From positions 1-20,407 of the forward strand of contig JAAENB010000788.1 of assembly GCA_024224995.1 (NCBI GenBank): DNA of 20,407 bases. Direction: 5' to 3'. The notes below the pieces were generated by a model. That model was not told the DNA's origin and ran no database searches. It saw only the letters and a program-made list of their open reading frames with translations. The position numbers were made by a program, and so were the translations under genes. This DNA comes from a bacterium. Lineage in GTDB: Bacteria; Spirochaetota; UBA4802; UBA5550. Positions 2,788 through 20,407 of the stretch are shown here, in pieces (position 1 is the stretch's first letter; each line of letters opens with the position of its first letter).

Positions 2788-2805
2788 GTAAAAAAGTAAG
2801 TAAAC

Positions 2806-2832
2806 AAAGGGACCGGGATTCCCGGTCCCTTT
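2806..2832 (+). terminator. Intra-operon hairpin terminator or attenuator, livJ/livH
   Basis: A perfect 12-bp stem, AAAGGGACCGGG (2806-2817) against CCCGGTCCCTTT (2821-2832), has a 3-nt loop. It lies between the livJ stop and the livH start, which are 68 bp apart. Only a short T-run follows. Such a hairpin typically stabilises or partly terminates the upstream message and raises the ratio of binding protein to permease. Confidence 0.7.
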
Positions 2833-2855
2833 ATTATAAAAAAAGGTCATAAAGA

Positions 2856-3746
2856 ATGTCATCAGAACAGTTCCTGCAATATCTTCTTTCCGGTATAACC
2901 ATCGGAAGTATTTATGCCATTGTGGCAATCGGCTATAATATTATTTATAATACAACAGGTATCATCAATTTTGCCCAGGGTGAGTTTTTAATGCTGGGAG
3001 GCATGATCGGGGTTACAATGCAGCACTATATGCCGTTACCCCTGGCAATACTGGCAGCAGTTATTTTAACAGCCACTGTGGGAGCTGTAATTGATTTTAC
3101 TTTTATCCGGAGGCTAAAAAAGCCTTCGGTCTTGAATATGATTATCGTAACAATTGGTCTTTCAATTGTAATACGGGAGATCGCGCTGCATATCTGGGAT
3201 GAAAAGGTCCGGTCGCTGCCGTATTTTACCGGCGACGAGGTTTCTTCTATCAATATTTTTGGCGCTTATATTTCTCCCCAGGTTTTATGGGTACTGGGAG
3301 TATGCGGTATTACTGTTCTGCTTCTGAGCCTGTTTTTTAAATTCACGGTCTTAGGCCGTTCAATGAGAGCCTGTTCCGCGAACCAGGTTGCCGCACGGCT
3401 GTGCGGCATCAATGTAAAGAACATGGTAACCATATCGTTTATGCTCAGCGCGGCCATTGGAGCCCTGGCCGGATGCGTGGTATCTCCCATTACCCTTACC
3501 CAGTATGATTGCGGAACATCCCTGGCCATAAAAGGATTCGCCGTTGCCATCCTTGGAGGATTGGGCAACAGTATGGGAGCAGTAGTGGGAGGCCTTATTA
3601 TTGGAGTGCTTGAGGCATTCAGCATCAGCGTGCTTCCCCTGGCATATAAAGACGCGGTGGCTATTTCAATATTACTCATTATATTATTTGTAAAACCGAG
3701 CGGAATTTTTGGCAGTAAAGAAGTTTCTGCGTTGAAGGAGTTTTGA
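2856..3746 (+). CDS. livH: Branched-chain amino-acid-type ABC transporter permease LivH
   Basis: This integral inner-membrane permease forms one half of the translocation channel with LivM. The 296-aa protein has about eight hydrophobic segments and the family signatures GSIYAIVAIGYNIIYNTTGI, INFAQGEFLMLGG near the N-terminus, and the coupling-loop region FTVLGRSMRACSANQVAARL followed by GLGNSMGAVVGG. The start is ATG 2856 with a modest AAGG at 2844-2847. Its stop TGA (3744-3746) overlaps an ATG at 3746 that is a duplicated, now defunct copy of the livM start. In the original arrangement livH and livM were probably translationally coupled through this TGATG junction. The identity is secure. 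The disturbed 3' junction is the odd feature. Confidence 0.92.
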   Translation: MSSEQFLQYLLSGITIGSIYAIVAIGYNIIYNTTGIINFAQGEFLMLGGMIGVTMQHYMPLPLAILAAVILTATVGAVIDFTFIRRLKKPSVLNMIIVTIGLSIVIREIALHIWDEKVRSLPYFTGDEVSSINIFGAYISPQVLWVLGVCGITVLLLSLFFKFTVLGRSMRACSANQVAARLCGINVKNMVTISFMLSAAIGALAGCVVSPITLTQYDCGTSLAIKGFAVAILGGLGNSMGAVVGGLIIGVLEAFSISVLPLAYKDAVAISILLIILFVKPSGIFGSKEVSALKEF

Positions 3747-3779
3747 TGAGTCTCAGAGGAGCCTGTCCCGCAGAGGGGC

Positions 3780-3805
3780 TAACGTGGGGTTGAAACCCCA
3801 CGTTA
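3780..3805. repeat. 26-bp palindrome with GGGGTTGAAACCCC core (copy 1)
   Basis: TAACGTGGGGTT and AACCCCACGTTA are perfect 12-bp arms around a GA centre. The 14-base core is identical to that of the palindrome at 3823-3848, while the outer arm bases differ with matching changes on both sides. Confidence 0.85.
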
Positions 3806-3822
3806 TGAGAAGGAGAGGGGGA

Positions 3823-3848
3823 CAACAAGGGGTTGAAACCCCTTGTTG
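3823..3848. repeat. 26-bp palindrome with GGGGTTGAAACCCC core (copy 2)
   Basis: CAACAAGGGGTT and AACCCCTTGTTG are perfect 12-bp arms around GA. The core matches the copy at 3780-3805, and its reverse complement occurs at 6883-6896. Confidence 0.85.
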
Positions 3849-3871
3849 GACGAAGCGGCAGCAGCAGAGTT

Positions 3872-3950
3872 CGGGATTTGAGTAAGTCCTCTTCAGGGTG
3901 GTGAAACAAGAATATTTTCACCACCCTGAAGAGGCCTTACTAAAATCCCG
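3872..3950. repeat. Long hairpin, 35-bp stem, shared-loop family member A
   Basis: Arms 3872-3906 and 3916-3950 pair over 35 positions with two mismatches (3880/3942 and 3887/3935) around a 9-nt loop. The apical part, CCTCTTCA, four variable bases, GGTGAAACAAGAATATTTT, recurs in the hairpin downstream of the STAS gene (11376-11466). No U-tract follows, so a simple terminator role is unlikely. Confidence 0.8.
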
Positions 3951-4005
3951 GCTCACTAACCCGGGATTCGCCCGGCACAAGAATAAGTTTATATAAGGAA
4001 ATTTG

Positions 4006-5073
4006 ATGAGTCTCAAAAAGTATTATCCCATATTCGGCTTGATATTATTTGTAATAGTATTCCAGCTGTTTTTATCCCTTATTGGAAAAGAATTTTTTTT
4101 AACACAGCTCACTATGGCAGCATACTATGCTCTTGTAATAGTGGGGCTTACTGTTCTAATGGGATATACGGGCCAGATATCTATCGGCCACGCGGCTTTT
4201 TTTGCCATAGGCGGTTATACCACGTCGGTACTTACCGCGAATAAGTTAAGCGGTCTTACAGGGGCCGGGGTCGCGCAGTTTCTTATGAATATTGGAATGA
4301 CAACAATAGATAAAGACCCTTACGGAACAGAGATCGTTCATCTCTCACCCTGGGCAGCACTGACGTTTGCCATAATCATAACTGCTCTTATTGCCTTTCT
4401 CATTGGTATACCCATATTAAAATTAAAGGGCCATTACCTGGCAATGGCAACCCTGGGATTTGGAACAATTGTATACCGTGTCGTTCTGGGAACCGAGATT
4501 TTTGGCGGAGCAGACGGAATTTCCGATGTTCCGCCTTTTAGACTATTCGGCAATCTCGCCGTAGCAGGCGATTCGTCGATGAGGATAGAGAATTACTATA
4601 TTGCCTGGTTTGTCGTAATACTGTGTGTCGTGCTGCTGCTTAACCTCATAAATTCACGCGTAGGAAGAGCGCTGCGGTCCATCCACGGCAGTGAGGAAGC
4701 GGCAAACGCCATGGGAGTAGATACTGCCCGGTATAAACTGGCGATCTTTGTGTTAAGCGCGGTCTTCGCGTCTGTGGGCGGGGTCTTCCTGGCCCATTAT
4801 AACGGCGGGATTGGCCCGTCGGAAGCGGGCGTTATGAAGTCGGTGCGGTATGTGGCAATCGTGGCAGTGGGCGGCATGGCAAATCTCTGGGGCGCTCTTA
4901 TTATGGGAATCGTGCTCAATTTTCTGTCACTCCGGGGCTATTTCGGAAGTTATGATGACGCGTTTTTTGGAGTGATCCTTATTGTTATAATGATATTTTA
5001 CCCTGACGGAATTTTTAAACAAGAGAATTTCAAGGGACTCATAAAAACAAAATTATTAAAAAGAAAATCTTGA
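4006..5073 (+). CDS. livM: Branched-chain amino-acid-type ABC transporter permease LivM
   Basis: This is the second inner-membrane permease of the importer and partners LivH. The 355-aa protein has about ten hydrophobic segments. Family signatures are VGLTVLMGYTGQISIGHAAF, LKGHYLAMATLGFGTIVY (GHYLAMAT is highly characteristic), the coupling-loop sequence SRVGRALRSIHGSEEAANAMG, and GGMANLWGALIMG. I chose ATG 4006, with AAGGAA at 3995-4000, over an in-frame TTG immediately before it. That ribosome binding site comes from the palindromic insert separating livH from livM, so translation here no longer depends on coupling to livH. livG follows after 13 bp. The family assignment is firm. Confidence 0.92.
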   Translation: MSLKKYYPIFGLILFVIVFQLFLSLIGKEFFLTQLTMAAYYALVIVGLTVLMGYTGQISIGHAAFFAIGGYTTSVLTANKLSGLTGAGVAQFLMNIGMTTIDKDPYGTEIVHLSPWAALTFAIIITALIAFLIGIPILKLKGHYLAMATLGFGTIVYRVVLGTEIFGGADGISDVPPFRLFGNLAVAGDSSMRIENYYIAWFVVILCVVLLLNLINSRVGRALRSIHGSEEAANAMGVDTARYKLAIFVLSAVFASVGGVFLAHYNGGIGPSEAGVMKSVRYVAIVAVGGMANLWGALIMGIVLNFLSLRGYFGSYDDAFFGVILIVIMIFYPDGIFKQENFKGLIKTKLLKRKS

Positions 5074-5086
5074 AAGAGTTACAATT

Positions 5087-5851
5087 ATGAGCTTTTTGAA
5101 AATAAATAATATAAATAAATCATTTGGCGGACTTCACGCCGTAAATGCAGTTTCATTCGAGGTGGAGAAAAATTCCATCCAGGCAGTAATTGGCCCAAAC
5201 GGAGCCGGAAAAACCACGCTTTTTAACCTGGTTTCCGGGGCAATCAAGCCCGATTCGGGCAGTGTGCTGTTTAATGAAAAATCGATATATAACCTGGCAC
5301 CGCATAAGATTGCCCGGCACGGAATATCCCGGACATTCCAGAATATAAAACTATTCAGTTCAATGTCCGTACTTGAGAATGTAATGGTAGGCCGCCATGT
5401 AAAGACAAAGGCGGGATTCTTAAGCGGCATGTTTAACCTGCCTTCCACCTGGAAAGAAGAGCGGACCATTCGTGAAAAGTCAATGGAGCTGTTGAAGCTT
5501 TTGGGAATCGCGGACCTGGCTCATGAAGACGCCGAGAGCCTTGCGTTCGGCAAGCAGCGAACAGTAGAATTTGCCAGGGCCCTGGCATCGGAACCGGAGC
5601 TCTTGCTTTTAGATGAACCTGCGGCGGGCTTAAATATTTACGAGACCGCGGAGATCGCGGAGATGATATCAAAGATCCGGGAATGGGGAATTACCATACT
5701 TATTATTGAACATGATATGTCACTGATTATGGATATTTCGGAAAATATCGTAGTGTTAAGTTCCGGAGAGAAAATAGCCCAGGGAAAGCCCGAAGATATA
5801 CAAAAGAACGAAGAAGTAATAAAAGTCTACCTGGGGGACGATGATGCTTAA
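5087..5851 (+). CDS. livG: Branched-chain amino-acid-type ABC transporter ATPase LivG
   Basis: This cytoplasmic nucleotide-binding subunit powers the LivHM permease together with LivF. The 254-aa protein shows Walker A GPNGAGKTT, a Q-loop region in GISRTFQNIKLF that is typical of LivG, Walker B LLLLDEPAAG, and the switch His in IIEHDM. The C-loop reads LAFGKQRTVEFARAL, where LivG proteins normally have LSYGQQR, so the serine that contacts ATP across the dimer is alanine here. ATG 5087 is preceded by a GAAAGAG-type ribosome binding site at 5072-5078. The 3' end overlaps livF by 11 bases, which suggests coupled synthesis of the two ATPases. Confidence 0.93.
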   Translation: MSFLKINNINKSFGGLHAVNAVSFEVEKNSIQAVIGPNGAGKTTLFNLVSGAIKPDSGSVLFNEKSIYNLAPHKIARHGISRTFQNIKLFSSMSVLENVMVGRHVKTKAGFLSGMFNLPSTWKEERTIREKSMELLKLLGIADLAHEDAESLAFGKQRTVEFARALASEPELLLLDEPAAGLNIYETAEIAEMISKIREWGITILIIEHDMSLIMDISENIVVLSSGEKIAQGKPEDIQKNEEVIKVYLGDDDA

Positions 5852-6578
5852 GATCAGGAATCTGGAATCGGGTTATGGCAAGCTGCGGGTGCTGAAAGGA
5901 GTTTCCATGCATATCAATCCCGGAGAGATTGTAGCCATCATCGGGGCAAACGGAGCAGGAAAAACCACCTTGCTGGAAACCATATCCGGAATAATTTCAG
6001 CCAGGGATGGCGAGATAAAGTTCGACGGAAAGAACATCGGGCGGATTTCCGCGGAACGGATCGTAAGCCGGGGCTGTGCCCTGGTTCCCGAAGGACGGCA
6101 GGTTTTTTCAACCATGACCGTAAAAGAGAATCTTATGCTGGGAGCCTATTCCATACGGAAAAAAGCTGAGAAAGAGAGCATACGGCAGGAGCTTGAATCT
6201 GTTTATGAACTTTTCCCAAAATTAAAAGAGAGAGAAACCCAGCTTGGCGGAACCCTCTCCGGCGGGGAGCAGCAGATGCTAGCTATTGGAAGGGCCTTAA
6301 TGGCACAGCCAAAGCTCATTATGCTTGATGAACCTTCCATGGGGATCGCGCCAATTATCGTAAAAAATATTTTTAAAAATATAGTAAAATTACGTGACCA
6401 GGGAAAGACCATACTCCTGGTTGAGCAAAACGCGAAGGCCGCGCTCAGTATTGCCGACAGGGGATACGTCATTGAGACCGGCCAGATCGTGCTTGACGAG
6501 TCGGCAGAAGAACTCTTAAACAATAATGATGTTCAGCGCGCCTATCTCGGAAAAGACTATAAGAGCATAAGTGAGTAA
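5841..6578 (+). CDS. livF: Branched-chain amino-acid-type ABC transporter ATPase LivF
   Basis: This is the second ATPase of the importer, 245 aa. Visible motifs are Walker A GANGAGKTT, the LivF-typical Q-loop PEGRQVFSTMTVKENL, a canonical signature LSGGEQQMLAIGRAL, Walker B IMLDEPSMG, and VEQNAKAAL, where LivF proteins normally carry Gln at the switch position. Two adjacent ATG codons (5841 and 5844) could serve as the start. I used the first, behind GGGGG at 5833-5837. The stop is embedded in TAAGTAAGTAAG (6576-6587), which places stop codons in more than one frame. A similar TAAG run follows livJ. livF is the last transporter gene, and a 398-bp repeat-rich gap separates it from the PaaK homologue. 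Confidence 0.93.
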   Translation: MMLKIRNLESGYGKLRVLKGVSMHINPGEIVAIIGANGAGKTTLLETISGIISARDGEIKFDGKNIGRISAERIVSRGCALVPEGRQVFSTMTVKENLMLGAYSIRKKAEKESIRQELESVYELFPKLKERETQLGGTLSGGEQQMLAIGRALMAQPKLIMLDEPSMGIAPIIVKNIFKNIVKLRDQGKTILLVEQNAKAALSIADRGYVIETGQIVLDESAEELLNNNDVQRAYLGKDYKSISE

Positions 6579-6640
6579 GTAAGTAAGGTAATCGGTGGCC
6601 CAGGGGCCGGGTGATCGGTGATCGGTAAAAGAAAGAAGCC

Positions 6641-6969
6641 CCGGTAAAGCCGGGAAAAAATACGGAGAAACTGCGGCCCCCACTGAGCGGGGTGCGACCC
6701 CTGCGAGGGGATTTAGCATGGGGCTCTGCTCTGTACCCGGGGTTAAAAACCCCGGGCTACATGACTACACCCCTCTGGGGTGTTTCCGGTATGGGACCGA
6801 CTCGCCCGCAGGGCATTGGTTAATCATTGGTTGGTGCTGACCCAAGACAGAATCGCCCCAGCGGGGCGACGTATTGTAGCTCGGGGTTTCAACCCCGTGA
6901 AACAGAGCAGAGCCCCGGGATAAAATCTTCGGGAACAGGCCCTATTAAAAATTTAGTTTCTTGAGAGAG
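6641..6969. repeat. Composite intergenic repeat element, copy 2
   Basis: The left end (CCGG, four bases, GCCGGGAAAAAATACG at 6649-6664, then GAGAAACT) and the right end (22-base word 6948-6969) match the ends of the element at 77-258. The interior differs completely and holds the multi-hairpin block 6720-6916. The right end, GAGAGAGG, lies directly before the paaK start and forms its ribosome binding site. With bases 6579-6640, which hold only GGTGATC direct repeats, it accounts for the whole livF-paaK gap, and I see no gene there. Confidence 0.6.
6720..6916. repeat. Multi-hairpin block closed by a 15-bp inverted repeat
   Basis: GGGGCTCTGCTCTGT (6720-6734) pairs perfectly with 6902-6916. Enclosed in order are perfect small hairpins: 6736-6756 (9-bp stem, AAA loop), 6767-6783 (7 bp, TCT loop), 6804-6814 (4 bp, GCA loop), 6853-6869 (TCGCCCC/GGGGCGA, AGC loop) and 6882-6897 (CGGGGTT/AACCCCG, TC loop). 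ATTGGTT is also directly repeated near 6815-6831. The layout is that of a multibranched fold, or of a cluster of REP-like palindromes. I do not recognise it as a known RNA family. Confidence 0.65.
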
Positions 6970-6976
6970 GTGAGTT

Positions 6977-8266
6977 ATGATATATAATAAAGAATATGAA
7001 ACAATGCCGCGGGAAGACCTGGAGCAGATCCAGATAGAGCGCCTTCAATCTACGTTGAACAGGGTATATCGTAATGTGGCTCATTATAAGAATAAGTTTG
7101 ATGAGTGTAATATTAATATAGAAAAAATAAAAAATATAAAAGATATAAAAGAGCTTCCGTTTACAACAAAGGAAGATTTGAGAAACAGTTATCCTTATGA
7201 TATGTTCGCGGTACCGTTAAAAGATATAGTACGGATACATTCTTCAAGAGGAAGAACGGGAAAGCCAATCGCCATCGGTTATACCAGGAATGATCTAACC
7301 CGCTGGTCGGAGCAGGTAGCCCGGCTGCTAATCGCTATTGGTATTGATGACCATGATTTTGTACAGATCGCTTTTGATTACAGCATGTATACGGGCGGGT
7401 TTGGGTTTCATTACGGAGCTGAAAATATCGGCGCATCGGTAATACCGTCCTCAACGAACAGCAGGATTCAGGACCAGATCCTGCTCATGAAGGATTATAA
7501 GACCACAGTACTGCTCAGCACGCCCAGTTATGCCATTGACCTGGGGAACAATTTAAAAGAGATGGGAATACATCCCGAAGAGCTGAACTTGCGGCTTGGA
7601 CTTTTTGGCGCAGAGCCCTGGGGAGAGAAGGTCCGCGAGACCATAGAAGAAAAACTGCATATTTCCGCCTTTAATAATTACGGCGTAAATGAAATAATGG
7701 GGCCGGGAGTAGCCTGTGAATGCGATGAAAAGAACGGGCTCCACGTCAATGAAGATCATTTTATTGTAGAGATCATAGACCCTGAGACGCTTGAGCCCGT
7801 AGAGGACGGCAAAGAAGGGGAGCTGGTATTTACCACAATAACCCGGGAAGGTTTTCCGCTCATCAGGTACCGCACCGGGGACCGGACCATGCTTCTTGGA
7901 GGAGAATGCGCCTGTACTCGCACAACCCGGAGAATAGCCCGGGTAGCCGCCAGGGTCGATGATATGATCGTTATACGGGGCATCAATGTCTTCCCGGTCC
8001 AGATCGATGAAGTGCTTAAAAAAGCCGAAGGCATAGAACCTCATTTCCAGGTAGTTCTTGAGAACGAGGAAGGGATCGACACAATGGAGATCAAAGTTGT
8101 CGTATCCGATGATATATTTAATGATGAAGTTAAAAAGATGATGGAACTGAAGAACCGTATATCGGGCCTTATTGAGGATGAGCTTGGCATCTCAGCAAAG
8201 ATAAGCCTGGTAGAGCAGGAGACCCTGCGGGATGAGAACGTGGAGAAGGTTGTCGATAATCGGTAG
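6977..8266 (+). CDS. Phenylacetate-CoA ligase family protein, divergent
   Basis: This is an adenylate-forming enzyme of the PaaK family, whose characterised members convert phenylacetate, ATP and CoA to phenylacetyl-CoA. The 429-aa length is normal. Supporting motifs are YGVNEIMGPGVACEC (A5-like), PLIRYRTGDRT (A7/A8 core) and RVDDMIVIRGINVFPVQIDEVL, which is very characteristic of PaaK. Two key sites differ. The ATP loop at residues 88-97 reads HSSRGRTGKP where the family has HASSGTTGKP. The C-terminal A10 segment reads DENVEKVVDNR where family members have a GKAKRV-like sequence, so Asn421 sits where the catalytic Lys is expected. Activity is therefore uncertain. The start is ATG 6977 behind GAGAGAGGTGAG, part of which is repeat-derived. 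Its position after the Liv operon suggests a role with the imported compound. Confidence 0.85.
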   Translation: MIYNKEYETMPREDLEQIQIERLQSTLNRVYRNVAHYKNKFDECNINIEKIKNIKDIKELPFTTKEDLRNSYPYDMFAVPLKDIVRIHSSRGRTGKPIAIGYTRNDLTRWSEQVARLLIAIGIDDHDFVQIAFDYSMYTGGFGFHYGAENIGASVIPSSTNSRIQDQILLMKDYKTTVLLSTPSYAIDLGNNLKEMGIHPEELNLRLGLFGAEPWGEKVRETIEEKLHISAFNNYGVNEIMGPGVACECDEKNGLHVNEDHFIVEIIDPETLEPVEDGKEGELVFTTITREGFPLIRYRTGDRTMLLGGECACTRTTRRIARVAARVDDMIVIRGINVFPVQIDEVLKKAEGIEPHFQVVLENEEGIDTMEIKVVVSDDIFNDEVKKMMELKNRISGLIEDELGISAKISLVEQETLRDENVEKVVDNR

Positions 8267-11702: not shown

Positions 11703-12482
11703 ATGGTGAAAACAATTAGCAAATTATTAGTATTTTTTTTACTGGCATTTTTCTTTTCATGTTTTAACACGCAAGAAGAATTGAGTGCTGATGAGCAGCA
11801 AGCGCTTACGAATGAAGCTCTGGGGATCGCGTTAAACGCGGTTGGAACTTCACTTGATTCAATCGATTGGTCTAAGGCCACGAAAGAGGCCGCTAAAGAG
11901 GACAGCAAAACTTCATTTGATGTACTGAAAGATGATGTTTTTGGTATAACAGCCACACTCGATCTGAGCAGCATGGCATTGATTCTAACATTCGACAAGT
12001 TTGTCGTAGGCGGCGGAGCAACTATATCGGGCGCGCTGGTTATGGCATTAAGCAATGAAAAAATCGACTGCAATGACCAGGGTAAGGAATGCTCATATCA
12101 TACTGTCGTAACTATCAACACCGACGCGAATAACCCGCTTGTAGCAAATAAGAAATGGGACAACTCATCTGATCTGGTAAACATACCCATACAGGTAAAA
12201 GATGTTATTTTCTGTATTGATACTAGCGATATGTTTAAGTTCGATTGGTCGACCCTCAAACTTGAATTAGCCCCTGCACGGATGTGCGGATTCGGCGGCA
12301 AGATCGTTGTGTATGTTCAGGTTCCCAATATTGGAGAATTCGCGGCAACAATGACTCTTGGCGGACAAGAATCTACTTTCTGTAATGACCTGCGCGGCAT
12401 AGTAAATGGACACGATTGGGGAGTTTTTAGCCTGGTCAAAAAATTCTGGCTCGCAGTTATTGACGGAATATGTAACGACTAA
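11703..12482 (+). CDS. Predicted lipoprotein of unknown function, Cys-rich
   Basis: I do not recognise a family. The 259-aa precursor has a short basic start, a Phe/Leu-rich hydrophobic segment and the lipobox FFFSC with Cys20, so it should be exported and lipidated. The mature part begins with an acidic, helix-prone stretch (residues 23-75). A beta-rich segment with Gly-rich VVGGGATISG follows, and then six further cysteines, in the local contexts DCND, ECSY, FCID, MCGF, FCND and ICND. The even number suggests three disulfides in an oxidising compartment. AAGGAG at 11690-11695 supports ATG 11703. It has its own promoter-like region and is followed by a hairpin at 12529-12564, so it is probably monocistronic rather than part of the GH3 cluster. 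Confidence 0.75.
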   Translation: MVKTISKLLVFFLLAFFFSCFNTQEELSADEQQALTNEALGIALNAVGTSLDSIDWSKATKEAAKEDSKTSFDVLKDDVFGITATLDLSSMALILTFDKFVVGGGATISGALVMALSNEKIDCNDQGKECSYHTVVTINTDANNPLVANKKWDNSSDLVNIPIQVKDVIFCIDTSDMFKFDWSTLKLELAPARMCGFGGKIVVYVQVPNIGEFAATMTLGGQESTFCNDLRGIVNGHDWGVFSLVKKFWLAVIDGICND

Positions 12483-12528
12483 ATCATTTCACATGAGCGG
12501 CAGCATAAAAATGCCGGCCGTTGTGTAA

Positions 12529-12564
12529 GCAGAAGGAGACGGGTTGTAAGGCCCGTCTCTCTGC
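12529..12564 (+). terminator. Hairpin after the lipoprotein gene
   Basis: GAGACGGG (12536-12543) pairs with CCCGTCTC (12552-12559), and GCAGA/TCTGC extends the stem after a 2-nt bulge. It sits between the lipoprotein gene and the next cluster. No T-tract follows, so its efficiency as a terminator is doubtful. Confidence 0.45.
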
Positions 12565-12611
12565 GCATTATGCAGGTGCATACGTTCGCATACAACTGGA
12601 GGTTGGAAAAG

Positions 12612-13433
12612 ATGGGTCGTGGGTTACGGAAGGGGATTAAAGAAGGATTTGTTCCAATAGAAAAGGTTACGGATACCGACATTGAAGAGATGCATCGGTT
12701 GTTTGTAAAATATTATGAGAATACCGCCTTTGATATATTTGCCCGGGATATGAGGAAAAAGGACGGTATTATGTGTTTCCGCAAAAAGGTTGATAATAGT
12801 ATAATTGGTTTTAGTACTATTATGAGGATGAATATGCGGTGTAAGGGGAAGAGGGTAGACGGAGTTTTTAGCGGAGATACTGTTCTGGAAAAAGAGTACT
12901 GGGGCAGCGGCATTATACAAATATCATTTATCAGGTACGTTATACTGCAGAAACTGCGAAATCCTTTTGTACCGTTTTATTGGTTCCTTATATCAAAAGG
13001 GTATAAGACCTACCTGCTTCTGGCCAATAATTTTTTGAATCATTATCCCCGCTGCGAAGGCAGGGGCGGGCGGAAAAACCGGCGAATGAAAGATGTGGTA
13101 GAGGCTTATTGTGACTACTTGTATCCGGGATACCTGGATAAAGAGGACGGGCTTCTAAAATTTGGAGATGATTACCAGAAGTTAAAGACTCATGTAGCGG
13201 AAATTACCGATAAATTGAAAGAAGAGTTCCCAAAAATCGCGTATTTTGAAGAACTGAACCCAACCTGGCGGGAAGGAACAGAGCTTCCCTGTATAGGAAA
13301 GCTGGAGCTGGCAGCGTTAGGGTATTACATACAAAAAGTCGGTAAAAATTTGTTGCAAAAATCGCTAGCCCATGTAAGAAGGATATTCGGGGTAAAGACC
13401 GACATCGCTTACGAAAATGCAGACAGGAATTGA
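12612..13433 (+). CDS. GNAT-like acyltransferase-fold protein, first gene of the GH3 cluster
   Basis: This 273-aa protein probably has an acyl-CoA N-acyltransferase fold. The support is moderate. The segment from IIGFSTIMRM through FSGDTVLEKEYWGSGIIQIS resembles GNAT strand beta4 and the acetyl-CoA loop, with YWGSGI in place of the R/QxxGxG/A motif. The remainder is rich in aromatic and basic residues and I cannot place it. There is no signal peptide. I prefer ATG 12612, with GGAGG at 12598-12602, over an in-frame ATG at 12570 that lacks a ribosome binding site. Three imperfect 10-bp repeats cross its stop codon, and a long hairpin separates it from the GH3 gene. Position and orientation suggest it belongs to the export cluster downstream. 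The substrate is unknown. Confidence 0.6.
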   Translation: MGRGLRKGIKEGFVPIEKVTDTDIEEMHRLFVKYYENTAFDIFARDMRKKDGIMCFRKKVDNSIIGFSTIMRMNMRCKGKRVDGVFSGDTVLEKEYWGSGIIQISFIRYVILQKLRNPFVPFYWFLISKGYKTYLLLANNFLNHYPRCEGRGGRKNRRMKDVVEAYCDYLYPGYLDKEDGLLKFGDDYQKLKTHVAEITDKLKEEFPKIAYFEELNPTWREGTELPCIGKLELAALGYYIQKVGKNLLQKSLAHVRRIFGVKTDIAYENADRN

Positions 13434-13451
13434 CAGGAGTTGATCGGAATT
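13422..13451. repeat. Three imperfect 10-bp tandem repeats
   Basis: GACAGGAATT, GACAGGAGTT and GATCGGAATT follow one another at 13422-13451 with one and two differences from the first unit. The array covers the last codons and stop of the GNAT-like gene. It could be a helical-phase binding array or chance. Confidence 0.4.
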
Positions 13452-13500
13452 AGATAAAGCTTTCTGTCTTTTGCTGCTTAAACAGGGATACAAGGATGGT

Positions 13501-13567
13501 ACCTGTGAGGCGGCTTTAAGTTGGAACAGGGAATTCCCCTGTTTGGGCTTAAATCCGTTTCACAGGT
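13501..13567 (+). terminator. 31-bp RNA hairpin with five G-U pairs, upstream of the GH3 gene
   Basis: Arms 13501-13531 and 13537-13567 pair over 31 positions around a 5-nt loop, with 24 Watson-Crick, 5 G-U and 2 mismatched pairs. The wobbles are allowed only in plus-strand RNA (on the minus strand they would be A-C). TTTTCTTG follows. It may be a terminator or attenuator between the GNAT-like gene and GH3, or a leader structure controlling GH3. Confidence 0.6.
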
Positions 13568-13594
13568 TTTCTTGTAATATAAGGGTATAGCTAT

Positions 13595-15277
13595 ATGTTT
13601 TCAGATATTAAAACACGTTATTCATTTGAGCTTATTTACCAGTTCAGTAAACCGGGGTATTACCGGTACCGGAACGCGCTTGCTGATGTAGAAACAGCAC
13701 AGCGCCGGGTATTGTCGGAGCTGCTGGAATACAGTTCACAGTCTGCCTATGGGAAGCGGAATTCTCTTCATAAGGATATGTCATGGGAAGAGTTTAGTGC
13801 TCGTATCCCGGTTACGGATTATAAAGACTGGGAATCCCTGGTTTCCAAACAGATGGAATTCGGGGACGAGCTGCTTAGCGGGGAAGAATGTGAGCGATAT
13901 CAGCCCACCAGCGGTTCCACCTCAAAAGTGAAATGGATTCCCTATACCAATCGATTCCTCGCGGAGCTGGACCGGGCAGTATCACCCATGGTCGTAGACG
14001 TTCTTGCGAAGCAAAAGCATTTGTTAACGGGAAAGCAGTACTGGTCCCTCTCCTGGATGCCCACGGAATACCGGAACGAGTCCGGAGAAAATATGAATGA
14101 TGATTCAAAACTTCTTCCCTGGTACAAGCGTATTCTTGTAGAGCAGACAATGGTAGTGCCAAATGAGATTTCCTTTGCGCCCACATCGGACGGAGCCCTG
14201 TTTGCCACATTGGCGTACCTTGCGGCAGCACGTAATCTTACGGTAATTTCCGTATGGAGTCCAACATTCGCGCTGAATATGTTTGAGCAGTTAAGCACCT
14301 ACCGGCAGGAGCTTGCGGATGTCCTCAGGTCCGGGAAGTGGGGAGCATGGACAGATGAGTTATCATTTTTGTCCTGTCCGCGATCGGCAGAAGCATCGTC
14401 CGTCTTACGGGTCTGGGACGGAAATGTAACAAGCGATTTTCTAAAGAAATTCTGGCCCAATGTAAGTATGATAAGTTCCTGGGACACATCCACTTCCGCG
14501 ATCTGGGCCCGGGAATTAAAAGAGCTCTTTCCGGATGCAGAGTTCCAGGGCAAGGGGCTCTGGACAACGGAAGGGATTATAACAATGCCTTTTGAAGGAA
14601 AATATCCACTGGCAGTGACAAGCCATTTTTATGAATTTATAGATCTTGAAACAGGAACGCTCCACCCATCCTGGGATTTGCAAAAGGGACAGGTTGTAAA
14701 GCCATTGATATCAACAGGATCGGGGTTCTTCCGCTATGCCATCAATGACCGGCTGAAAGTGGTCGATTTTATTAAAACCTGTCCCTGTTTTGAATTCCAG
14801 GGAAGGATTGACGAGGTCGACATGGTGGGCGAAAAGATCGCACCCGGAATTGCGATGTCGGTATTAAACCGGGCAGGCGACCGGTATTCGGTACGGGCTT
14901 TAAGCCTTCTCGCGATTGCGGCGAATACGAGCGGGAAAAGCAAACCTTATTATTTGTTGTTATGCGAAGAGGATAATTCTTTTGGCGAGATGAAAAAAGA
15001 AGTAGCCGAATATGCCGATAGTCTGCTCCGGGAGTCGTTCCATTTTAAGCTGGCCAGGGATTTAAACCAGCTCGCGCCCACAAAAGTCCTGTTTCACCCG
15101 GACGCGCGAAAATTATACCAGCAAATCGCGGAAACAAGAGGAATGATCCTTGGCGACATGAAAATAGAACCCCTGCTTCTTTTGACGGAAGAGGAGCTGG
15201 AGGAATCGGTTAAGAAGGGAGCGGCAAAGGAGTTCAACTCCGGGCAAAAAAATTTAAACTTTGAACTTCAAACTTGA
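13595..15277 (+). CDS. GH3-family acyl-acid amido synthetase
   Basis: This adenylate-forming enzyme of the GH3 family has 560 aa, within the family range. Plant members (JAR1, auxin-conjugating GH3) activate a carboxylic acid as an acyl-adenylate and transfer it to an amino acid. Bacterial members are poorly characterised. The three nucleotide motifs are present: QPTSGSTSKVKWIPYT (103-118), GLWTTEGIITMPF (321-333) and GFFRYAINDRLKVVDF (377-392, with Arg380 and Asp385), followed by FQGRIDEVDMVGEK, a typical hinge region. It is cytoplasmic with no signal peptide. ATG 13595 is preceded by AAGGG at 13581-13585. It is followed after 23 bp by a double-GNAT-like gene and then an exporter, so the product is probably an amide or related conjugate destined for export. 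Acid and amine substrates cannot be read from sequence. Confidence 0.88.
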   Translation: MFSDIKTRYSFELIYQFSKPGYYRYRNALADVETAQRRVLSELLEYSSQSAYGKRNSLHKDMSWEEFSARIPVTDYKDWESLVSKQMEFGDELLSGEECERYQPTSGSTSKVKWIPYTNRFLAELDRAVSPMVVDVLAKQKHLLTGKQYWSLSWMPTEYRNESGENMNDDSKLLPWYKRILVEQTMVVPNEISFAPTSDGALFATLAYLAAARNLTVISVWSPTFALNMFEQLSTYRQELADVLRSGKWGAWTDELSFLSCPRSAEASSVLRVWDGNVTSDFLKKFWPNVSMISSWDTSTSAIWARELKELFPDAEFQGKGLWTTEGIITMPFEGKYPLAVTSHFYEFIDLETGTLHPSWDLQKGQVVKPLISTGSGFFRYAINDRLKVVDFIKTCPCFEFQGRIDEVDMVGEKIAPGIAMSVLNRAGDRYSVRALSLLAIAANTSGKSKPYYLLLCEEDNSFGEMKKEVAEYADSLLRESFHFKLARDLNQLAPTKVLFHPDARKLYQQIAETRGMILGDMKIEPLLLLTEEELEESVKKGAAKEFNSGQKNLNFELQT

Positions 15278-15300
15278 AACTTTCTTTTAAAGAGGTACTT

Positions 15301-16482
15301 ATGAATATTGATAATTTTATAGGCGGTTTTTCCGGGGGGCGAATGGCCAAACCGGAAGACAATCAGAAGATACTCAATTTTTACAACTCTTTTAGTATGG
15401 AAGGAGGGGCTTTTAAAATAGCCTTTCGAAAGGAACCCGATTATTTTCGATTCCTCAGCTATGAAAGCCCCAAACATCATGTATTTCTCATGGAGAATAA
15501 CGATAAAGAAATAGAAGCAATGGCTTCAATGATCGTACGGCCCTGTTACATCAACGGGGAAGTAGACCGTGTCGCGCATATTTCCGATCTCCGGGTCGTG
15601 AGCAAGGCACAGCGAAAGAATAAATTCCGGTGGCGTGATTTTTCACTGGCAATTTGTGAACAGGGAGAAAAGATACGGGAGTTCGAAAAATGCCGGTATT
15701 ATCTTGGTTCCTATGTGGATGCCAACAAACAGGCTAAAGACGTAATTAGTTCATTTGACGCTCCCTATGCCACCAGTGATGTGGCAAATTACCGGATGGT
15801 AAGCCTGCTTGCCCGGAAACTGCCAAAAGTGTTCGGAAGAAAATCATCGGTTTCGGACCTGAAAATAACAATCACCAGGGCACGGGAAGAAGACCGGGAA
15901 GAGTTAAAAGGATTCCTCGACCGGCAAAGCAGGAAGCGGACATTCGGATATGTGTACAGTGGAAAGGACGGAGAACTGGAACGGCGAATTCGTGACTGGG
16001 ACGGGTTTACGATTGCCTCTTTTTATGTGGCCAGGAATACGGCCGGAACGATCATCGGGTGCTGCGCGCCCTGGGATCCCACAACGGGGAGAAGAATCGT
16101 TGTTGATACATTTCCGGGATCCCTGGTTTTCCTGGCAAAAGTGGTAAAGCTCCTGGGGAAAAACGTACCCGATCCGGGAGATGAATTAAAGACCCTGTAT
16201 TTGACAACAATGGAATATGATTATTCGTTATCAACGAAACAAAAGCGGCATATTTTAAATGCCATGATTGATGAAGTGTATAAAACCGGCATAATGAAGG
16301 AGTATCATGTGCTGGCTTTTTGTGATTATAAAAAAGAGAGCATCGCGGCAGGTCTTAAAAAGGATTATTTTGTGGAAAGCACCTCAACAGTGCTCTACCA
16401 GCTTCATGCCCGTGACTCGGAAGAGGTAATACGGGAGAGTGAACTGGCAGTACCTCCGGGCCACGAGATGTGTCTAACATAA
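15301..16482 (+). CDS. Double-GNAT-like acyltransferase
   Basis: This 393-aa protein without signal peptide or membrane segment appears to hold two GNAT-type halves. In the N-terminal half, EAMASMIVRPCYI and VAHISDLRVVSKAQRKNK fit strand beta4 and a degenerate acetyl-CoA loop. In the C-terminal half (from about residue 190), ITITRAREEDREELKGFL opens a second domain with GTIIGCCAPWD and a later Tyr-rich MEYDYSL region. The acyl-CoA loop motif is weak in both, so catalysis is unproven. I chose ATG 15301, with AAAGAGG at 15289-15295, over an in-frame TTG at 15274. It sits 23 bp after the GH3 gene and 32 bp before the exporter, all in one apparent operon, so it is likely to act on the same product. 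Confidence 0.65.
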   Translation: MNIDNFIGGFSGGRMAKPEDNQKILNFYNSFSMEGGAFKIAFRKEPDYFRFLSYESPKHHVFLMENNDKEIEAMASMIVRPCYINGEVDRVAHISDLRVVSKAQRKNKFRWRDFSLAICEQGEKIREFEKCRYYLGSYVDANKQAKDVISSFDAPYATSDVANYRMVSLLARKLPKVFGRKSSVSDLKITITRAREEDREELKGFLDRQSRKRTFGYVYSGKDGELERRIRDWDGFTIASFYVARNTAGTIIGCCAPWDPTTGRRIVVDTFPGSLVFLAKVVKLLGKNVPDPGDELKTLYLTTMEYDYSLSTKQKRHILNAMIDEVYKTGIMKEYHVLAFCDYKKESIAAGLKKDYFVESTSTVLYQLHARDSEEVIRESELAVPPGHEMCLT

Positions 16483-16514
16483 AAGGAATGGTTCTGAGTT
16501 CCAGGTAACGAGCA

Positions 16515-18878
16515 ATGAAATTAATTAAGTCCATAGCAAAATCGATAGTAGCGTATTACTGGCTGGTCCTTATCCTGGTGGCGGCTCTTTCTATTCCCCT
16601 GTTCTATTTTTCCTCAAAGCTTTATTTTTATAATGATATAGAGATCTATTTTGAAGATGATAATAAAGAACTGGCTGATTATAAAAAGTTCCAGGAACGG
16701 TATGGCAATGAACAGCTTGTTGTGGCGGTCTTTAAAGATGAGAACCTGTTTAGCGTCGAGAATATTCAATTGATCCGGCAAATGAGCGGCGCGCTCAAGC
16801 GGATCAGCGGCGTACAGCAGGTGTACAGTCTTACGGAAGCGAAAGAGGTCTTTGAAGACAGCGAAAGCATTGATTATAAGGAAATTATTCCAACCGGGGC
16901 AGTCACTGCGGAGCAGCTCCAAAAGGTGCGAAAAAAGGTGATGGCCAATGAAGCAATCCGCGATAACCTGCTTTCGAAAGACGGAACAACAACAGCAGTT
17001 GTTATAGAGCTAAAAGCGCTGGACAGGATAGAAAAAAGAAAAACTCTTGGGATGATTGTCACCGCTTCCGGAAAGATCGGGGACGGCAGGATAAAACTTC
17101 ATTATACCGGCATACCCTTTATAGAAGCCGAACTAACCAGGCTTTCGGAACGGGACCTGGTACTCTTTATCCCCATACTGCTGCTGATTATATTTGTGGT
17201 CACAGTATTTTTGCTCAAGAGTGTGTCCCTGGCAATACTGAGCCAGGTAAATTTGTTAATAACCACGGTCTGGACAGTGGGATTTTTTGTGGTGTGCGGA
17301 GAAAGTTTTAATATCGTCGTGGTAACCATGACGGCAATATTGCTGGCCATATCCATCGCGGACTCGATCCATATTCTTACGCAATACAAAAAGGATCTGT
17401 ACAAACACGGGTACGACAGTATCAAGGCCATCCGTAGTACGCTAACCCACATCTGGCTTCCCTGTTTTTTAACCAGTGTTACAACAGCAGCCGGTTTTTT
17501 ATCGTTTGTCACCGGCAGTATACGGCCCGTGACCATCCTGGGAATATTTACCTCCGTTGGAGTACTCTTTGCCTTTGCCCTGTCGGTCACTTTTATGCCG
17601 GCAACACTGATCCTGTTTCGAAAAAGGAACAGGGAGATGGGTATGGAAAAGGATGATTACAGTGACGAGGGGGGGCAAGAAACCGGAAAAGGGCTCTTGT
17701 CCCGGGCTCTTATGGCAACCGGCAGGTTTGCCACAGGCTACCGGAAAGCAATTATCGTTGTATTTGTGGTATTGCTGGTTTTTGGAATAACCGGTATTAC
17801 CAGGCTCACCTTTGAAAGTGATTCAATGCGGTATCTTCCCAACAGCAATAGTTTTAAATCGGATTGGATGTTTATAGAAAAAAATCTTGGAGGATCGAAT
17901 CCCTTTGTGCTGCTTCTCCAGGCAAACGGTGATGTTAATTTTGCCCAACCCGAAGCGCTCAAACTGCTGGATAAGGTCCAGCGCGATATTACGGCATCGG
18001 TAGAAAAAATAACCACAGCCGCATCAATTACCGATTACCTGAAGGAATGCAGCCGGGTCGTGAAGGGCGACGCCTGGTACCGGGTACCATCCTCACAGGA
18101 AGAAATTGAAGAATATTACGAGACAGCGGAGGTTGAACTCCTGGACCGGTTCCTGGGCCCCGGGAAAAAAGAGGCCCGTATAACGTTCCGCACACTGGGC
18201 GGGACCAATGAAGAAGCAGTGGCCATAAATAACCATGTCCGGGACTATATGAAACAGAACCTGGGAACATCGTTCGACTATAAAATAACGGGGCTCACGA
18301 AGTTGTATGTAACATTGGGGAAGAATCTCAAAGAGAGCCAGATAAAGAGTTTTGTTGTGGCCTTTATTATTATCTTCATAATGATGTTGTATATTTGCCG
18401 GGGAGTAACCCTGGCCTTGCTCAGTATGATACCCAACCTGTTCCCGGTGGCAATGATACTGGGATATATGGGCTGGGCCAATATCCCGCTCACCGCGTCA
18501 ACCATTATGATAGCCAGTATTACCCTGGGGATCGCGGTTGATGATTCGATTCATTTTATGGTTTCTTTTAGAAGAAAGATCGGGGCCGGCTATGATACTC
18601 AAACAGCCCTGATGCATGTTTATGGTGACGTTGGAAAACCTGTTGTTATTACCACGTTGCTCTTGTTTCTCGGGTTTGGTGTTCTCACCCTGGGAAGCAT
18701 TTTGCCCACGAGATTTTTTGGATCTCTTACGGCATTTTCCATGCTCTTTGCCCTGGTTGGAGATCTTTATGTTTTGCCCGCGCTTATCCTGGTATTAAAA
18801 CCAAAAGTGACGCCATTGGTCGATAAGGTCTTAACGGAATGTCCGCCCGATGCGATACCGGAAGGGGCAGCGGGATGA
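16515..18878 (+). CDS. RND/MMPL-superfamily exporter
   Basis: This large inner-membrane, proton-driven transporter has 787 aa. The architecture is two repeats: TM1 at about 13-32, a periplasmic domain to about 210, then a block of five helices (about 215-370), a linker, TM7 at about 415, a second periplasmic domain and a final five-helix block (about 615-770). Each half carries the acidic TM4-type motif, AISIADSIHIL near residue 280 and GIAVDDSIHFM near 675, as in MMPL, HpnN and patched-like proteins that move lipids or hydrophobic molecules. ATG 16515 has only a weak ribosome binding site. Its stop overlaps the start of the outer-membrane gene (ATGA), which implies a coupled envelope-spanning system. 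The cargo is unknown but is plausibly the GH3/GNAT product. Confidence 0.9.
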   Translation: MKLIKSIAKSIVAYYWLVLILVAALSIPLFYFSSKLYFYNDIEIYFEDDNKELADYKKFQERYGNEQLVVAVFKDENLFSVENIQLIRQMSGALKRISGVQQVYSLTEAKEVFEDSESIDYKEIIPTGAVTAEQLQKVRKKVMANEAIRDNLLSKDGTTTAVVIELKALDRIEKRKTLGMIVTASGKIGDGRIKLHYTGIPFIEAELTRLSERDLVLFIPILLLIIFVVTVFLLKSVSLAILSQVNLLITTVWTVGFFVVCGESFNIVVVTMTAILLAISIADSIHILTQYKKDLYKHGYDSIKAIRSTLTHIWLPCFLTSVTTAAGFLSFVTGSIRPVTILGIFTSVGVLFAFALSVTFMPATLILFRKRNREMGMEKDDYSDEGGQETGKGLLSRALMATGRFATGYRKAIIVVFVVLLVFGITGITRLTFESDSMRYLPNSNSFKSDWMFIEKNLGGSNPFVLLLQANGDVNFAQPEALKLLDKVQRDITASVEKITTAASITDYLKECSRVVKGDAWYRVPSSQEEIEEYYETAEVELLDRFLGPGKKEARITFRTLGGTNEEAVAINNHVRDYMKQNLGTSFDYKITGLTKLYVTLGKNLKESQIKSFVVAFIIIFIMMLYICRGVTLALLSMIPNLFPVAMILGYMGWANIPLTASTIMIASITLGIAVDDSIHFMVSFRRKIGAGYDTQTALMHVYGDVGKPVVITTLLLFLGFGVLTLGSILPTRFFGSLTAFSMLFALVGDLYVLPALILVLKPKVTPLVDKVLTECPPDAIPEGAAG

Positions 18879-20371
18879 TGAAACACCCGGCGCGAATATA
18901 TTTTCCCGTACTGTTAACGGTACTGTTCCTGATGATGGCAGTATTGCAGCCGGTCCTGGCTCAGGAAAAAAGTAATTTTTCATTGAAGCTGAAAAAAGAA
19001 GCTGCTGCTGAGGATGAAGAAGACGAAGAAGAAGATGAAGAAGACAGCGAAGTAACTTTTGATTATACCGGGATCGTATCACTGGAGAACCTGGTTGATA
19101 TAGATACCAGCGCCGGCGCAGGCGATATGTTTAAAAAAAATGAACTACGCCATAACATGAAGATCCGGTTTGGGACCGAAAGGATTTACGCTAAAATGAA
19201 CTCCAATTTTTATCTTATTCCTTATCTTTTTAGTGACAGGATAAATACTCACTACCGCTACGCCACAGGAGCCGAATTCGGCAGGAATCTCCGGGTTTCG
19301 GGAGAGGCTTTTGAGTTAAATTTCCGTGAGTTATACTTCAATTATGAAACAGGAAGTCAAACCCTGCGGCTGCGGCTGGGAAACCAGGTTTACGGCTGGG
19401 GAACGGCGGATGTATTTAATCCCACATCCTATTTTAACCGCCTCGATCTTCGGGAGCTGCTCTTTAAAGAAGAGGATGAATTGAACCAGGGAGTGCCGTC
19501 CCTGTCGTCCCTTATTCTCGCGGAGTGGTTTTCACTTGAACTGGTTTGCGTCCCCATCCAGGTCCCAATCCTGCTGGCGCCCCGGGGCAATTTGTGGGCA
19601 GTTGAGTACCGGGAAGGGCCCTTTGTTATTAAGGTCGGTGAGCAGGAGCCGATTGACCTGACCTGGTCGAATATTAGTGTTGGCGGGCGCTTTGCCGTGA
19701 ACGTGTGGTCAACCGACCTCTCCCTGAGCTATTTTCACGGACCCGACAGTGAGGCAGTGATTCGGCCGGGCAGCGTGCTCATTGAAGACGGGGCGCCGGT
19801 TTCATTCCTGGGAAACGCGGAATACTACGTAGTAAATAAAATTGGTTTCGACATAACCAGGGCAGTAAGCGATTTTACCCTGCAAGGGGAGGTGGCGTTT
19901 TCATTCGACAAAACCGGGCTTGTGGATACGCCATACCGCTACGATATGACATTCCCCATGGACGTGCGGCAGTCGAAATATATATCCTATTCAGCGGGCT
20001 TTAATTATTCCATATCGTACCATGAGGGCGATACCATGCTTACAATGGAGTGGGCACAGGCCCGCTACTTTGATGGGGGAATTAGTGCCCCGCTTATGAC
20101 CGATATGCTAACTGTTATGCTAACAGATACCTTTTTTGAAGGATCCCTGAAGGTCTCTCTTGGCGGGATTTTTAATATAAAATTTTATAATTCCGATTCA
20201 TTTCAAGTTAAAAATGAAGGCTTTATTCTCATGCCCGCGGCAGGGTATGATTTTAAGAACGGGATAGAGTGCGCGCTCTCCTTTACCTATATTTCGGGAG
20301 AGGACGGATCGCTCCTGACGTATTTTAACGATAAAAAAATAATAACACTGAGGATAAGTTATGAATACTAA
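18875..20371 (+). CDS. DUF1302-like outer-membrane beta-barrel protein
   Basis: This 498-aa exported protein has a signal peptide (basic start, hydrophobic 10-28, cleavage likely after VLA29 before QEK). Amphipathic beta-strand sequence follows up to a C-terminal aromatic strand (ITLRISYEY), typical of outer-membrane barrels. The segment GNQVYGWGTADVFNPT with RLDLRELLFKEEDELNQGVPSL resembles the DUF1302 family, members of which are often encoded beside MMPL exporters and DUF1329 proteins. An odd feature is residues 46-59, where 13 of 14 residues are Asp or Glu, just after the mature N-terminus. ATG 18875 overlaps the exporter stop as ATGA with GGAAGGGG at 18860-18867. A longer in-frame start at 18839 would spoil the signal peptide. 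It probably forms the outer-membrane step of the export route. Confidence 0.8.
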   Translation: MMKHPARIYFPVLLTVLFLMMAVLQPVLAQEKSNFSLKLKKEAAAEDEEDEEEDEEDSEVTFDYTGIVSLENLVDIDTSAGAGDMFKKNELRHNMKIRFGTERIYAKMNSNFYLIPYLFSDRINTHYRYATGAEFGRNLRVSGEAFELNFRELYFNYETGSQTLRLRLGNQVYGWGTADVFNPTSYFNRLDLRELLFKEEDELNQGVPSLSSLILAEWFSLELVCVPIQVPILLAPRGNLWAVEYREGPFVIKVGEQEPIDLTWSNISVGGRFAVNVWSTDLSLSYFHGPDSEAVIRPGSVLIEDGAPVSFLGNAEYYVVNKIGFDITRAVSDFTLQGEVAFSFDKTGLVDTPYRYDMTFPMDVRQSKYISYSAGFNYSISYHEGDTMLTMEWAQARYFDGGISAPLMTDMLTVMLTDTFFEGSLKVSLGGIFNIKFYNSDSFQVKNEGFILMPAAGYDFKNGIECALSFTYISGEDGSLLTYFNDKKIITLRISYEY

Positions 20372-20407
20372 GCATAGGCGGACCGGGTTCAAAACAGCGT
20401 TTCGTAT
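20361..20407 (+). CDS. Start of a further exported protein (partial, runs off window)
   Basis: ATG 20361 is preceded by GAGGA (20350-20354) and overlaps the end of the outer-membrane gene by 11 bases. The 15 visible codons read MNTKHRRTGFKTAFR, a basic n-region expected at the start of a signal peptide. In related clusters a DUF1329-type lipoprotein-sorting-like protein often follows the DUF1302 gene, but that identity is only a guess here. Confidence 0.5.
   Translation, partial: MNTKHRRTGFKTAFR

Follow-up and report, generated by a model that had tools for sequence, protein, structure and literature searches.

A conserved GNAT–GH3–GNAT gene module in bacteria with a candidate role in making and exporting an acyl-amide lipid

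The GH3-family enzyme OlsH of the planctomycete Singulisphaera acidiphila makes N-acyl-ornithine from a free fatty acid, ornithine and ATP (excerpt of PMC12493201), and with its partner OlsI it represents the one GH3-dependent lipid pathway of bacteria that we found worked out in the open-licence PMC literature. In human N-myristoyltransferase (NMT), the C-terminal carboxylate of Gln496 is the catalytic base, and an enzyme truncated by three residues is barely active (excerpt of PMC7048800); a 2016 review states that, among members of the GNAT superfamily, such a base is found in NMT alone (excerpt of PMC4964394). Here we describe a locus on a 20,407-nucleotide stretch of spirochaete DNA (assembly GCA_024224995.1, contig JAAENB010000788.1; the whole stretch is hereafter the window), in which a GH3-family gene lies between the genes of two GNAT-fold proteins, GNAT1 and GNAT2, and is followed by genes for an MMPL-type pump and a DUF1302-like outer-membrane barrel. 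The GNAT1–GH3–GNAT2 triad is a real conserved module without a published description in the open-licence PMC literature searched, where no account of a GH3 gene with linked GNATs was found. On balance, we lean towards the locus being a dedicated biosynthesis-and-export system for an acyl-amide lipid, for which OlsH is the nearest functional precedent. The most interesting element of the locus is the NMT-like enzyme, GNAT2, with its invariant C-terminus.

The recurring unit is GNAT1–GH3–GNAT2. One genome per species was scanned with a GH3 alignment, yielding 215 matched stretches and 184 confirmed loci. The best 80 of these form the set analysed here, and remoter GH3 relatives fall outside it. 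The three genes occur in that order on one strand, with gaps below 400 bp, in 72 of the 80 loci. The remaining eight comprise four with GNAT1–GH3 and no GNAT2, two with GH3–GNAT2 and no GNAT1, one with another gene order and one with GNAT2 on the opposite strand. The full triad is present in Pseudomonadota and Myxococcota, and a GNAT1–GH3 pair in Thermodesulfobacteriota. The nearest GH3 relative of the window protein (P0002, 63 percent identity) shares one 55,961-base contig with homologues of GNAT1 (P0143) and GNAT2 (P0122), and their locus-tag numbers are neighbouring where given, which suggests that this relative has the same triad.

Because the 80 loci had been selected through GH3, a sample not chosen in that way was also searched, consisting of 274 genomes from the class to which the Oleispira locus belongs (to judge by a record title, Gammaproteobacteria). 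GH3 was found in 10 of these, GNAT1 in 8 and GNAT2 in 7, as nested sets: every genome with GNAT2 has GNAT1, and every genome with GNAT1 has GH3. Among the seven GNAT2 genomes, one is the centre genome and another (G216, which holds L079) is also represented in the 80 loci. The three genes share one contig in six of the seven. In G173, GNAT1 is on a separate contig and the GH3 match begins at base 9 of its own contig. Two radical-SAM genes separate GH3 from GNAT2 in G160, and the GNAT1 matches of G160 and G007 are each interrupted by a stop codon. The first-pass annotation, made from the window alone, had raised the question of whether the GNAT-like genes travel with GH3; they do, both in these nested sets and at the 80 loci, where tblastn found GNAT1 in 78 and GNAT2 in 76.

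The window GH3 protein matches PF03321 with 143.1 bits, against a gathering score of 23.6, and PF23571 with an E-value of 6.6e-15; its nearest solved chain by sequence is GH3.12 (7.5e-11). All three nucleotide-binding motifs are present (PTSGSTS at 104, TTEG at 324 and GFFRY at 377), equated by eye with the OlsH and plant motifs given in PMC12493201. Residues T105-S106-G107, T325-E326 and G377-R380-Y381-D385 are invariant across 37 sequences. The GH3 tree comprises 56 proteins, and a supported branch (99/96) sets apart 54 of them, namely the window protein, all 39 locus proteins whose genes have a GNAT linked to them, and a further 14 from the database with unchecked gene neighbours. The two GH3 proteins without a GNAT (from G084 and G188) fall outside, on very long branches and with unsure placement; joins of such branches may be false, and the midpoint root serves for display. 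As a separate observation, a GH3 gene without linked GNATs at L091:446-2981 adjoins an alpha/beta hydrolase gene, in a layout like that of OlsH–OlsI.

Neither GNAT protein of the window has a Pfam family above cut-off, and among 18 GNAT2 relatives weak Pfam GNAT matches appear in a few (best 0.0006), with none in the window protein itself. The predicted structures of GNAT1 and GNAT2 both adopt GNAT folds, bearing out the GNAT-like labels that both proteins had received from sequence. Compared as profiles, the two give an hhalign probability of 21 percent over 68 columns, which is not evidence of anything beyond the shared fold. The GNAT2 model shows an NMT-like tandem-GNAT fold over nearly the whole chain, at an identity to NMT of about 10–12 percent in the fold alignment. 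In that alignment, 48 of the 50 rows shown extend to residue 393, the last of the GNAT2 model, and the human NMT rows end at residue 496. No NMT family was found among the Pfam matches of 18 GNAT2 members at E-values up to 5, nor any NMT chain among the GNAT2 sequence matches in the PDB at E-values up to 10, and membership of NMT at the sequence level was rejected on this basis.

GNAT2 proteins share a fixed tail. Counted from the stop codon without alignment, position −5 is occupied by E (101) or D (7) in 108 of 108 proteins, and the addition of a Burkholderia copy (L094) and of L011 brings the acidic residue to 110 of 110 GNAT2 proteins with a readable end. The set consists of the 74 among 76 GNAT2 loci that passed a frame test, L011 (which failed that test and was read separately), 21 database proteins, 13 further loci and L094; the copy at L057, cut by a contig end, was left out. 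None of the 108 rows is identical to another over the last 200 residues, many are close relatives, and clades sharing about 16–21 percent identity with the window GNAT2 are included. In a control at the same loci, no single residue exceeds a fraction of 0.41 among 76 GNAT1 proteins, or of 0.47 among 79 GH3 proteins, at any of the last 12 positions. The parallel between this tail and the C-terminal carboxylate of NMT is suggestive. Model confidence is low at the tail, whose role could be structural; alternatively, the base could be the invariant acidic residue. One GNAT2 relative that has the fixed tail, at L113:7714-8958, comes from a genome with no GH3 match.

From the gene order, its conservation, the predicted folds and the fixed tail, we infer the chemical steps, substrates, direction of transport and role of the carboxylate as follows. 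GH3 would use ATP to activate a carboxylic acid, which is probably a fatty acid, and couple it to an amine or amino acid, by analogy with OlsH. GNAT1 and GNAT2 would add further acyl groups, with acyl-CoA or acyl-acyl carrier protein as the likeliest donor, to an amine on the precursor or product. The two GNAT halves of GNAT2 would bind a long acyl donor and the amine acceptor in the manner of NMT, and its C-terminal carboxylate, at a fixed distance from the invariant acidic residue, may by the same analogy serve as the base. In the window genome, the HAE3/MMPL-like pump and the DUF1302-like barrel would carry the product outward, and elsewhere RND–HlyD or MFS–HlyD–TolC exporters would fill this role; the exported product is probably an acyl-amide lipid. 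A more tentative generalisation is that a bacterial branch of NMT-like tandem GNATs with a C-terminal carboxylate base might form, together with GH3 and a second GNAT, a portable module for doubly acylated amine lipids, exported by pumps recruited separately by each lineage.

The genes found beside the triad at other loci include fatty-acid desaturases, radical-SAM and Rieske proteins, together with three related groups of acyltransferase-like HxxxDG proteins of the condensation-like kind. One family of about 335 residues (L010:12790-13797 and relatives) has no Pfam match. All 25 of its clustered members carry the HxxxDG motif, and hhalign relates it to two nearby HxxxDG families, one being condensation-like. 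The shared theme of the loci is lipid tailoring and export.

These neighbours bear on a different explanation, that of detoxification, in which toxic carboxylic acids arising as hydrocarbons or aromatics are broken down would be joined by GH3 to an amino acid, amines would be capped by the GNATs and the conjugates would be expelled by the pump. Many of the 80 loci come from Alcanivorax, Marinobacter, Thalassolituus, Oleispira or Aquabacterium, several of which degrade oil. In addition, the DUF1302/HAE3 system AmeABCD confers tolerance to monoterpenes (excerpt of PMC6394551). However, the desaturases, radical-SAM, Rieske and HxxxDG proteins suit biosynthesis better, and two acyltransferases exceed what conjugation requires, such that we consider detoxification unlikely.

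Export is recurrent among the loci, and the type of exporter varies. HlyD and AcrB-type RND genes occur in 46 of the 80, with RND lying 3′ of GNAT2 on the same strand and within 5 kb in 41. In Acinetobacter baumannii the order is HlyD, MFS pump, GNAT1, GH3, a TolC-like protein (OEP), GNAT2 and SurE. The window pump matches the NCBIfam HAE3 model TIGR00921 over positions 7–733 of 733 (215.2 bits, 1.3e-63), below the cut-off of 351.9, and by sequence is related to that family. The barrel's match to PF06980 is weak: it scores 25.8 bits where the cut-off is 23.2, and covers only 64 residues (144–207 of a 510-residue open reading frame opening at 18839).

MMPL and RND genes were sought with one and two query proteins, respectively. 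With the window's pump as query, an MMPL gene was found at one of the 80 loci (L026), about 120 bp after GNAT2, and DUF1302 at none by tblastn with the window's barrel as query, a test that is insensitive. For this reason a DUF1302 model was searched against 30 of the 80 genomes, of which 25 were positive, at 59 places, none within a GH3 locus. By number, 16 of the 59 fall in the range of a locus; each contains stop codons in the mapped frame, whereas the places are reported as stop-free, and they therefore lie on other contigs. GH3–MMPL–DUF1302, which the first-pass annotation had put forward as a linked set, was rejected as a conserved unit on these counts. Its wider proposal, a pathway that makes and exports an acyl-amide or lipid conjugate, retains the co-occurrence of GH3 with the GNATs, the recurring exporters and the OlsH precedent, and loses MMPL plus DUF1302 as a conserved partner.

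The same counts favour a second alternative, in which the triad makes an amide lipid and the window's pump and barrel belong to an unrelated neighbouring operon. Against it stand the tight spacing in the window, where 32 bp separate GNAT2 from the pump gene and the pump and barrel genes overlap by 4 bases, and the recurrence of other exporter types at the same place, as well as the MMPL gene of L026 itself. We regard an unrelated operon as improbable.

Some observations nevertheless weigh against a dedicated system built on the triad. In the window, the pump may adjoin the triad by chance. Among 247 genomes of the L001 phylum, GNAT2 was found in two, one of which (G485) has no GH3 match. GNAT2 was found in six of 140 genomes of the L009 phylum (inferred to be Myxococcota); a strong GH3 match on the contig of GNAT2 is confined to G003 and G685, where GNAT1 is present on that contig too. 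In G661 and G616, GNAT1 lies beside GNAT2 with no GH3 on the stretch, the G661 contig being only 4.7 kb long; in G655, GNAT1 and GH3 are about 4 kb apart, without GNAT2. From the pairs in the L009 phylum it follows that the two GNATs may occur together without GH3.

A further explanation casts GNAT2, like eukaryotic NMT, as an enzyme that attaches acyl groups to protein or peptide N-termini, with GH3 acting separately. The NMT-like fold and the fixed C-terminus would fit such a role. The tight linkage to GH3, however, points to a small molecule, and no conserved peptide gene was noticed among the open reading frames examined, which were those of 80–90 residues or more; we hold protein acylation to be very unlikely. 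Least credible of all is an OlsH-type pathway to ornithine lipids, since, despite a shared enzyme superfamily and a weak match to the NCBIfam OlsH model, the window GH3 scores 23.5 bits against the NF052613 equivalog cut-off of 620 and was rejected as a member, the Pfam scan shows no OlsI-like alpha/beta hydrolase in the six window reading frames at 11703-20371, and the term GNAT is absent from the excerpted OlsH paper (PMC12493201).

Several loci vary in content or setting. In L002 (11653-15237), L003 and L004, which have no GNAT2, the surroundings of GH3 include weak AMP-binding-like proteins together with an LPG-synthase membrane domain. On an IncF plasmid of Citrobacter portucalensis (L093:11256-23351), a hypothetical protein matching GNAT1 is followed by GH3 and GNAT2, with two radical-SAM genes between these two and another two after GNAT2; a further radical-SAM gene and a desaturase lie nearby. 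The module can thus reside on a plasmid, which in this case is predicted to be mobilizable. Searched against E. coli genomes, a 7.3-kb stretch of this cluster gave no near match. In PLSDB, two Acinetobacter baumannii records filed as plasmids (L092), each of about 4 Mb, look like misfiled chromosomes; GH3 and GNAT2 are present in both.

In the window itself, the cluster occupies positions 12612-20407 of the plus strand (Table 1). Six same-strand genes with short gaps and overlaps had been described there, and all of these were confirmed by reading the open reading frames and junctions from the sequence. The GNAT1 ATG at 12612 is preceded by TGGAGG, and an earlier in-frame ATG lies at 12570; AAAGAGGT precedes the GNAT2 ATG, with a gap of 23 bp between GH3 and GNAT2. 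The sixth gene opens with an ATG at an 11-base overlap with the barrel gene and offers only 15 readable codons; our guess is that it could encode a periplasmic partner of the pump. Just 5′ of GNAT1, at 12536-12559, an inverted repeat (GAGACGGGCCTTACAACCCGTCTC) is a candidate terminator or regulatory hairpin. Scans for promoter-like sites (24 against 15.9 in shuffles, sd 4.6) and terminator-like sites (12 against 9.5, sd 3.3) were uninformative. Upstream of the cluster, the genes at 1633-8266 comprise an apparent branched-chain amino-acid ABC transporter set, labelled by eye from translations, and after it a PaaK-like AMP-binding ligase (6977-8266; PF14535 2.2e-22). Weak profile matches to Skp1, DUF5700, TLD, Bcl-2 and similar families, as well as weak sequence matches in the PDB to dianthin and a ribosomal protein, were put down to chance.

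Table 1. Genes of the cluster in the window, with coordinates in the whole stretch.
Feature	Coordinates	Strand	Description
GNAT1	12612..13433	+	273 aa; a single GNAT-fold domain with added helices; without a Pfam family
GH3-family acyl-acid amido synthetase (ATP-dependent amide ligase)	13595..15277	+	560 aa; PF03321 1.5e-41
GNAT2	15301..16482	+	Tandem GNAT with N-myristoyltransferase-like fold and fixed C-terminus (HEMCLT-stop); 393 aa
MMPL/RND pump	16515..18878	+	Most like HAE3 type; 787 aa; PF03176 1.2e-33
DUF1302-like outer-membrane barrel	18875..20371	+	PF06980 7e-6; signal-peptide-like N-terminus (by eye, from translation)
Sixth gene, start	20361..20407	+	Cut by window end (MNTKHRRTGFKTAFR); from sequence alone

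Set beside known systems, the export genes of the window recall AmeABCD of Castellaniella defragrans, which, in the excerpt of PMC6394551, combines an HAE3-type RND pump of 787 residues with a DUF1302 outer-membrane protein; the window pump and barrel resemble AmeD and AmeA, respectively. The DUF1329 protein AmeB and the partner AmeC, however, are not visible in the window, which ends 15 codons into the next gene, and that excerpt describes monoterpene tolerance with no mention of GH3 or GNAT. Plant GH3 enzymes such as GH3.12 and JAR1 share the PF03321 family and a remote sequence match with the window protein, whereas they act on hormone-type substrates (excerpt of PMC12493201) and stand in no operon with GNATs or pumps. 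Eukaryotic NMT resembles GNAT2 in its tandem-GNAT fold, in an alignment that runs to the last residue of the model and in its fixed C-terminus, and differs in that GNAT2 belongs to a bacterial operon and has the low identity given above. The locus would also make it possible to examine directly whether any GNATs other than eukaryotic NMT use their own C-terminal carboxylate in catalysis. Like OlsH, the window enzyme is a bacterial GH3 protein with recognisable nucleotide-binding motifs, and is expected to carry out ATP-dependent amide formation with a fatty acid; where OlsH is partnered by an alpha/beta hydrolase, as excerpted from PMC12493201, the window GH3 has two GNATs and exporters beside it. 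If the proposed system is correct, the locus would represent a second bacterial GH3 lipid pathway, equipped with its own acyltransferases and exporters.

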